Source: Synechococcus sp. WH 7803
GTDB taxonomy: Bacteria > Cyanobacteriota > Cyanobacteriia > PCC-6307 > Cyanobiaceae
DNA length: 64,000 nucleotides
Direction of reading: 5' to 3'
Assembly (NCBI GenBank): GCA_000063505.1
Contig: CT971583.1
Location: forward strand, 310,001 to 374,000
This document shows positions 53,599 through 55,810 of this stretch, one piece after another (the stretch's first letter is position 1; every line of letters begins with the position of its first letter). Position numbers and translations under genes: made by a program. The notes below the pieces were generated by a model. That model ran no database searches, was not told the origin of the DNA, and saw only the letters and a program-made list of their open reading frames with translations.

Positions 53599-54387
53599 TT
53601 AGGTCCACTTGTTCAAGCCTGGCAAGGATGCGCTCGATGTCACGCCTTGCATGATCGGATCGTCACTTCCGCCGATTTCGCTGCCCGTGCGAGGCACGGC
53701 CAACCACTGGCGCAGCCAGCTGGTGAGCCAGATGAAAGGCATGGTGTCGATCACTGCGGCCATGGCCTTGAAGAGGTAACCACTGGCGATGAATGACAGC
53801 AGCTGCGGTGCCACAGGTTCGCCGGGGCGAACGGGGAGGACGCCGGAGGCGTAGTGGCTGATCAGCACCACAGCGCTGGTGTCCACCAGCTGGCTCACCA
53901 GGGTTGAACCGTTGTTGCGCAACCAGAGAGCCCGCCCGCCGCTGAACTGTTTCCAGAAGTGAAAGAGACGGACGTCCACGAACTGGGCGGTGAGGTAGGC
54001 CGCCATGGAGGCCAAGACGGAGCCGAAGGCCAGTCTCTGGATTTCGAAAAATGTGGAGTCTGGAGCCCCCTCCACGCCGGGGAGCAAGCCGCCCAACCAG
54101 AGGATCAGCACGACCCAGCCGTTGAGAAGGAGGCCGACCCACACCACCTGGCTGGCTCGCTTCTCACCCCACAACTCACTGATCAGATCCGTGCACAGAA
54201 ACGTGATCGGATAGGGAAGGGCGCCAACGGCCACCACGATCGGCCACGACCCGATGTGCCCCAGTTCCAGGAAGCGGGTGAGGCCAAGGATGTTGAGCAT
54301 CCCCAGGGTGCCGAGGAACAGCCCTGCAAGAGCCAGAAAGACAAAGTCGCGGCGTGCCTGGATTGAGGCGTTCATCGCTGCGAGCAT
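53599..54387 (-). CDS. Queuosine precursor transporter, YhhQ family
   Basis: A 262-residue membrane protein of the VUT/YhhQ family. Six hydrophobic helices are visible. The family block ALPYPITFLCTDLISELWGEK near residue 56 and the NNGSTLVSQLVDTSAVVLI segment near 157 are typical. E. coli YhhQ imports preQ0/preQ1. Together with tgt at 3694-4818 this suggests salvage of queuosine precursors. ATG 54387 is used; ATG 54375 is an alternative. An AT-rich islet begins about 40 bases upstream. Confidence 0.88.
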   Translation of the reverse strand: MLAAMNASIQARRDFVFLALAGLFLGTLGMLNILGLTRFLELGHIGSWPIVVAVGALPYPITFLCTDLISELWGEKRASQVVWVGLLLNGWVVLILWLGGLLPGVEGAPDSTFFEIQRLAFGSVLASMAAYLTAQFVDVRLFHFWKQFSGGRALWLRNNGSTLVSQLVDTSAVVLISHYASGVLPVRPGEPVAPQLLSFIASGYLFKAMAAVIDTMPFIWLTSWLRQWLAVPRTGSEIGGSDDPIMQGVTSSASLPGLNKWT

Positions 54388-54429
54388 GGAGATCGAAATG
54401 CAGCCTGGCGGCAGTCTGCTTCCCTGTCA

Positions 54430-55150
54430 CCACTCCAGAAGTTTGGAAACAATTCGATCGGGGGTCGTTAACGCGTTTAAGGAATTATGAGGAGTTGCAA
54501 TTATCATGAGATCTAGACGAGCCAATTGCATGGGGGTGGCGAATCTGAACGAGCTATTAAGCTTTTGAGCTAAGGAAATGATTGCACAAGCTAAATAAAA
54601 TGGTAAATCTTTATTGCGGGTATTTTGGAATTTGGATTAAACGCCGGGATTCGATACCGTGATAGCTATTAATTAATTTTAACCAATGCTGTTGATAAAC
54701 TGTTTAAATGCTTTGACTTGTTCATTGCTGGGCGGTGCTATGCCACCGTTCACTGCCAAATTCGTAGGGCCTGGTAGATTGACTTTTGCGAAGCCACCAG
54801 CAGCATTCATCATTTCGTCGTCGGAGAGTTCATCCTCAGCAACTGAGTGGGCTTGCGTGATGTCATCAGCTGAGATCGTAAAGCCCGCTGCTTTGGCAAT
54901 TGCCACAACGGCATCGGGATTGGCGGCTGCCTTGAGTTTTCCTTGAAGTTCTGAATTAGTTGCGACGGCATCTAGAAAATTTTTGAATTGCTCTGCCGAC
55001 ATGGTTGAAAAAGTATTGACTTTAAATGTTGGTTAGCAGTAGCTGGCGGTTTTGGCAAGTATTCGGAAGCGCAAAGTCATGATCAGAATGGGATGTCGGT
55101 TCTAGGTTTAAGCACTGGTTGTATCCATAAATACCCTTCCCATCGCTAAG
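54430..55150. other. AT-rich islet
   Basis: About 720 bases are strikingly AT-rich compared with the GC-rich surroundings. They hold the Nif11-type gene and a 290-base non-coding left part with runs such as TTAATTAATTTTAA. No integrase, inverted terminal repeat or direct repeat at the edges was found. The left part (54430-54678) shows no convincing gene. The segment may have been acquired by transfer. Confidence 0.65.
54679..55002 (-). CDS. Nif11-type leader peptide with cysteine-free core
   Basis: A 107-residue precursor-like protein. Residues 1-70 form a Nif11 leader (SAEQFKNFLDAVATN, KAAANPDAVVAIAKAAGFTI) ending in the double-glycine site ELSDDEMMNAAGG, as in prochlorosin and other marine cyanobacterial RiPP leaders. 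The 37-residue core FAKVNLPGPTNLAVNGG and onwards has no Cys, so lanthionine formation is excluded; Asn, Pro and Ser/Thr residues are plentiful. No modification enzyme or C39-peptidase ABC transporter is nearby. It has no clear ribosome site. It is on an AT-rich islet, indicating transfer. It may be exported unmodified. Confidence 0.85.
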   Translation of the reverse strand: MSAEQFKNFLDAVATNSELQGKLKAAANPDAVVAIAKAAGFTISADDITQAHSVAEDELSDDEMMNAAGGFAKVNLPGPTNLAVNGGIAPPSNEQVKAFKQFINSIG

Positions 55151-55810
55151 GATTTCCCAGCCCTCCTCCCAGCCTTCTTCTGCCGCCCCGCCGAGCTGGT
55201 CGCCCCCGACTTGATTGGTTGCCTGCTGGTGAAACGCCAAGAGGGCGACAGCTTGCTCTGGGGCGTGATTGTGGAAACCGAGGCGTATTCCCAGGAGGAG
55301 CCTGCCTGCCACGGCTATCGGCGCAGGAGCCCTCAAAACGAGACGCTCTTCGGGGAGCCTGGGCGTTTTTATGTGTATGTGAGCTACGGCATTCACCACT
55401 GCGTGAATGTGGTCACCGATCGGGCGGACTGGGCCAATGGTGTGTTGCTCAGGGCCGTGGCGCTGCCGGGTGAGCCTGAGCGCGTGGCAGCGGGACCTGG
55501 GCTGCTGGCCCGTCGCTTCGGGATCGACCGGCAGATGGATGGTTGTTCCGCCTGCTCCGGGCAGGATCTCTGGATCGCTCCGCGCCCTTCGGAGCTTCAG
55601 GATCTGGCGCTGGTCACCACCACCCGCATCGGGATTGCCCGAGCGCAGGAGTGGCCGTGGCGCTGGTACCTCCAAGCCAGCCGCAGTGTGAGCAAACGGG
55701 CCAAGGGAGATCGCAAGCCACTGCTGCAAGCCGCTTACCACCCCAATGCTGCCTGGGCGAATGGATCTCCTCCCACTAAGCTTCAGCAGAGTGAGCGGAC
55801 GCCCAGTTGA
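55142..55810 (+). CDS. mpg: 3-methyladenine DNA glycosylase (MPG type), start unclear
   Basis: An alkyladenine DNA glycosylase of the MPG/AAG fold that removes alkylated purines. Family marks are [61 protein letters not shown] and [11 protein letters not shown]. The frame is open from 55112. The first standard start is TTG 55211, which lies inside the conserved N-terminus. Nothing but ATA, ATC or CTG is available upstream, so 55142 (ATC) is only an approximate start. The gene begins at the edge of the AT-rich islet. Its stop overlaps the pyrB start. Confidence 0.8.

Follow-up and report, generated by a model that had tools for sequence, protein, structure and literature searches.

A prochlorosin-type precursor gene with a cysteine-free core at a recurrent prochlorosin site beside a DNA glycosylase gene in Synechococcus sp. 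WH 7803

In Synechococcus sp. WH 7803, an islet of 674 bp, whose sole gene encodes a prochlorosin-type precursor, occupies the exact site that in the closest relative examined (G246; pyrB 99.4%, yhhQ 97%) holds a prochlorosin cluster of ~17 kb and that is empty in three other relatives, a correspondence that is new here. The islet lies in the 64,000-nucleotide stretch of DNA analysed in this study (the window), and the best reading of its gene is that of a putative remnant of a prochlorosin island or of an allele of such an island with one gene. We consider it likely that the precursor was left at, or brought to, this recurrent site in a genome that has no lanthionine synthetase. Its most likely function would be cleavage and export in trans as a linear 37-residue peptide, which we infer tentatively and hold to be possible rather than probable. 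For the joint reading, in which a precursor of the prochlorosin type stayed behind at, or came to, a recurrent site beside a 3-methyladenine DNA glycosylase-type gene (MPG) and is exported in linear form, our preference is a slight one.

The precursor gene (54679..55002, minus strand) is an ORF with an ATG start and, by its translation, a product of 107 aa. The first-pass annotation had described a Nif11 leader ending in a double glycine and a 37-residue core devoid of cysteine, and both features were borne out. The protein scores 65 bits against Pfam Nif11 (PF07862; cut-off 23.8) and 89.2 bits against NCBIfam leader_Nif11 (TIGR03798; cut-off 32.3), the latter match covering residues 1-70 and stopping at the GG (residues 69-70). 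The leader (54793..55002, minus strand), supported by this match, by genus-wide conservation and by low dN/dS, ends in DELSDDEMMNAAGG, and the core (54682..54792, minus strand, followed by the stop codon at 54679-54681) reads FAKVNLPGPTNLAVNGGIAPPSNEQVKAFKQFINSIG, with 0 Cys among its 37 residues. Thus, with a leader above the curated cut-off that ends at GG, the gene is by its leader a member of the N11P (TIGR03798) family of RiPP precursors, while its predicted product, without the Cys in the core that defines lanthipeptides, falls outside that class. Compared with the prochlorosin precursors of marine picocyanobacteria (ProcA/SyncA), it has in common a Nif11 leader ending in GG, with ~60% leader identity, and the yhhQ-MPG site, which it shares with the G246 cluster, just as a place beside MPG is common to it and to the prochlorosin genes of relatives that have LanM; it differs in that its own genome has no LanM/ProcM, its core has no Cys, and that core counts 37 residues versus a median of 19. 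A promoter scan of the gene, which covered one promoter type, gave nothing above chance.

The islet (54465..55138) is flanked on the left by the gene of a yhhQ-like membrane protein (53599..54387, minus strand; named by resemblance), found with 94-97% identity in the same place in G246, G304, G204 and G231, and on the right by MPG (55136..55810, plus strand; named by resemblance rather than by a family search), which is a mosaic in its identity to relatives. In blastn comparisons, positions 54380-54464 match the yhhQ-side flank of relatives and 55139-55200 match MPG, and within the islet only the leader part has a counterpart among them, in G246 (72% over 136 bp). The GC content of the islet (0.41-0.48 vs. 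0.62-0.64 in the flanking genes) agrees with the first-pass view of a foreign islet, but its location speaks for a recurrent prochlorosin site and not for a random foreign insertion. In G246, the yhhQ-MPG interval of ~17 kb contains a truncated MPG 5' end, several precursors, an ORF of LanM size (1065 aa) and ORFs of exporter size before MPG itself is reached, with matches to LanC-like and C39 domains at G246:C1:411923 and 416952, both inside this stretch. The islet is missing from G304, G204 and G231, whose empty alleles consist of a short yhhQ-MPG intergenic region without a precursor. Since the islet stands at the exact place of the G246 cluster, it is most likely a remnant of such a cluster; as the spacing to MPG is 134 bp here versus 89-108 bp elsewhere, it is not established that both descend from one insertion. 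Close relatives thus show a single prochlorosin site in three states (empty, with one gene, and with a full cluster), so that the gain, the loss and a possible re-use of the peptide family can be put to the test.

The mosaic structure of MPG also bears on the origin of the islet. Residues 1-60 are 90% identical to G246 versus 78-81% to the empty alleles, and residues 61-224 are 98% identical to G246 versus 87-95%, so that, judged by these identities, the 5' end of the gene is of the occupied (island) type, as beside prochlorosin genes. This mosaic, the G246 cluster at the same site, the three empty relatives and the recurrent pairing of Nif11 genes with MPG all support the proposed origin, by which a prochlorosin-type gene would have remained at, or arrived at, the MPG-side site in a genome that lacks lanthionine synthetase. 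Close to the conserved N-terminus of the window's MPG there is no ATG, the candidate starts being TTG at 55118 or 55211, whereas in G231 the sequence of the empty allele is ATGGTCATCGCC; the start codon may have been displaced by the island junction.

The pairing with MPG extends well beyond this locus. MPG used as a query was found in 29 of 31 genus genomes, several of which carry extra 5' fragments of it. Divergent Nif11 genes adjoin a full MPG in eight genomes of the genus and in a single genome from a different genus, and they adjoin 5' fragments of MPG at another 13 places (tallied by hand from a table, with overlapping loci merged); the Nif11-MPG spacing is 89-108 bp at all of them except in the window. 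Duplicated MPG 5' fragments beside prochlorosin-type genes were seen in relatives at loci L112, L115, L116, L117, L120, L129 and L139. MPG remnants also occur in 16 of 175 regions upstream of prochlorosin genes, and since the random control of that scan drew on loci that contain MPG, we base the link on the fixed spacing instead. Recurrent adjacency at a near-fixed distance of ~100 bp points to recombination within MPG as the route by which prochlorosin genes would have spread. This would suggest how these genes move and multiply, a point left open in the literature searched, where no text joined 'prochlorosin' and '3-methyladenine' (a body of papers that does not extend to the principal study of their evolution, Cubillos-Ruiz 2017).

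Searched against 300 family genomes, the precursor found a match in 120 at E 0.001, and the matches listed extend over the leader and no further than the first core residues. A comparison of cores across relatives, proposed in the first-pass annotation, accordingly came back empty, no relative of the core being among the listed matches from the 300 family genomes; viral contigs likewise yielded no relatives, and the genome-contig search returned Synechococcus UW105 only, in the leader part (65% over residues 1-52). Leaders aligned over at least 60 residues reach up to 66% identity, and leader dN/dS versus relatives is mostly ~0.13-0.2, with dS near saturation. From these alignments the GG leader is the conserved part of the precursor and the core the variable one, and the double glycine, whose absence from homologues had been named beforehand as a refutation, is retained. 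Could the protein instead be a cytoplasmic Nif11 protein, with an incidental GG and no role as an export precursor? Several Nif11 proteins of this genome indeed do not end their leaders in GG, but the match to the GG-leader subfamily is full-length and, in the leader tree, the window leader falls among those of GG precursors (the two genes of this genome being joined there weakly, 98/61), so that we regard this as highly improbable.

The genome is a single contig of 2,366,980 bases, 99.9% complete, and was searched as a whole, as had been proposed, for LanM-type synthetases, C39 exporters and further Nif11 genes. No LanC-like domain was matched in it, by a search that was positive in 12 of 31 genus genomes; one C39 operon was found, and Nif11 matches number about a dozen. 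These include two intact GG precursors, the window gene and one at 998428, both with Cys-free cores, and a third leader copy (G000:C1 1756710-1756851; L047 9711-9852) that is frameshifted inside the leader. The published tabulation for WH 7803 likewise gives 2.4 Mb with one group V cluster and no group IV LanM cluster (PMC3140520). In relatives, a single synthetase acts on precursors encoded at dispersed places in the genome (PMC10783134), which lends some sense to the earlier suggestion that the peptide is modified by a distantly encoded enzyme. Against this stand the lack of a LanC-like domain and of YcaO in the genome and the lack of Cys in the core, and the DUF4135 search found no match either, though its controls likewise gave no signal and it thus had no positive control. 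The genome's only SPASM match, in a radical-SAM gene, is below cut-off and lies beside a precursor of its own, and we judge modification by a distant enzyme very improbable. The radical-SAM gene adjoins a small Gly-rich ORF with RAWGNGG and GFANG repeats, a pair (L166 371-1854) that we take to resemble the GrrM/GrrA type of RiPP.

The first-pass remark that no modifying enzyme or exporter is nearby stands for the immediate neighborhood, but the genome does hold an exporter elsewhere. Its only C39 exporter operon (G000:C1 557664-563478; C39 gene 561244-563478, C39 domain 563107-563457) lies ~190 kb from the islet and consists of a C39-ABC protein, a second ABC protein and HlyD; in NCBIfam, HlyD alone passes its cut-off, and the two ABC proteins, with 681 and 547 bits against TIGR03796 and TIGR03797, stay below the equivalog cut-offs. 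Beside it are three tandem GG precursors (G000:C1 556259-557567; L045 2760-4068), with an adjoining YadA-like gene. Their leaders end in DDELMAAAGG and their cores are Ala/Gly-rich and Cys-free. They thus resemble the window gene in having GG leaders, Cys-free cores and a C39 exporter, and differ from it in that their genes adjoin the exporter and that they score only 21-23 bits against TIGR03798 (cut-off 32.3), i.e., are distantly similar. For WH 7803, N11Ps have been reported next to a transport cluster of this kind (Haft 2010, PMC2887384), and export in trans by such a cassette has been proposed for MIT9313 (PMC3140520). In the proposed export step, the exporter of this operon would act in trans on the window precursor, cutting it behind the GG and releasing the linear 37-residue peptide. 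This is plausible because C39 domains cleave varied Nif11 leaders, whose hydrophobic residues at -4, -7 and -12 sit in a groove (PMC6363468); these are Val, Leu and Leu in the crystal structure (PMC6363468), and Ala, Met and Leu as read from the window precursor. We rejected the idea that its AAGG leader end is co-adapted to the local exporter, as 36 of 157 leaders from genomes with LanM also have Ala at -4. We count in favor of export the operon with its own three Cys-free GG precursors, as well as the second intact Cys-free GG precursor at 998428, and count against the favored explanation the core without a conserved relative, the outcome of the promoter scan, the frameshifted third leader copy and the fact that the operon has precursors of its own. 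The main texts of two exoproteome studies covering WH7803 mention neither Nif11 nor bacteriocins. In Synechococcus elongatus PCC 7942, EbfG1-4 (compared here by description) are also small GG-motif proteins whose export is aided by a C39 peptidase transporter (PMC4997328); they differ in that this source does not describe them as having Nif11 leaders and in that a function in biofilm formation has been shown for them.

Cysteine content was further compared across genomes. GG-Nif11 cores without Cys make up 16 of 168 in LanM genomes but 7 of 8 where LanM is missing (Fisher p 2e-6, which overstates independence, the eight genes coming from four genomes), in a sample taken from best-scoring loci and clusters that is not exhaustive and to which one of the eight was added by hand. 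Relaxed drift and re-use would both give this pattern. The seven Cys-free cores are therefore also in line with an inert relic: island and enzyme would have been lost and the remaining precursor would drift, its core having lost its Cys or been scrambled by indels, perhaps through fusion to the start of the following tandem precursor. In the LanM-less relative G075, one copy lacks an ATG where the start usually lies. Such decay would fit this copy and the frameshifted leader copy of the present genome, as well as the end of the core (its last 16 residues), which resembles a Nif11 leader start (p ~0.001, best of 84 cores and unique among them; the likeness was noticed before being tested) and weakly hints, on this likeness, at a fusion to a following precursor. 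Yet a search of the DNA in and after the core turned up no remnant of a second leader fused to it, the ORF is intact, the leader seems to retain what C39 cleavage requires, and its dN/dS is low, though most of that divergence may predate the loss of the enzyme. A relic is, all in all, a serious if doubtful candidate, nearly as likely as an exported linear peptide.

Returning to the exported linear peptide, one may also imagine a more general scenario, which we think unlikely: islands would spread by MPG-anchored recombination that leaves 5' fragments, and, after loss of the synthetase, precursors would be re-used as linear Cys-free export peptides via another C39 cassette, the window gene being one such converted precursor. 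The last 16 residues of the core are amphipathic (moment 0.51, p 0.015 by shuffling) and helical in a single-sequence model of low confidence (pLDDT 60.5).
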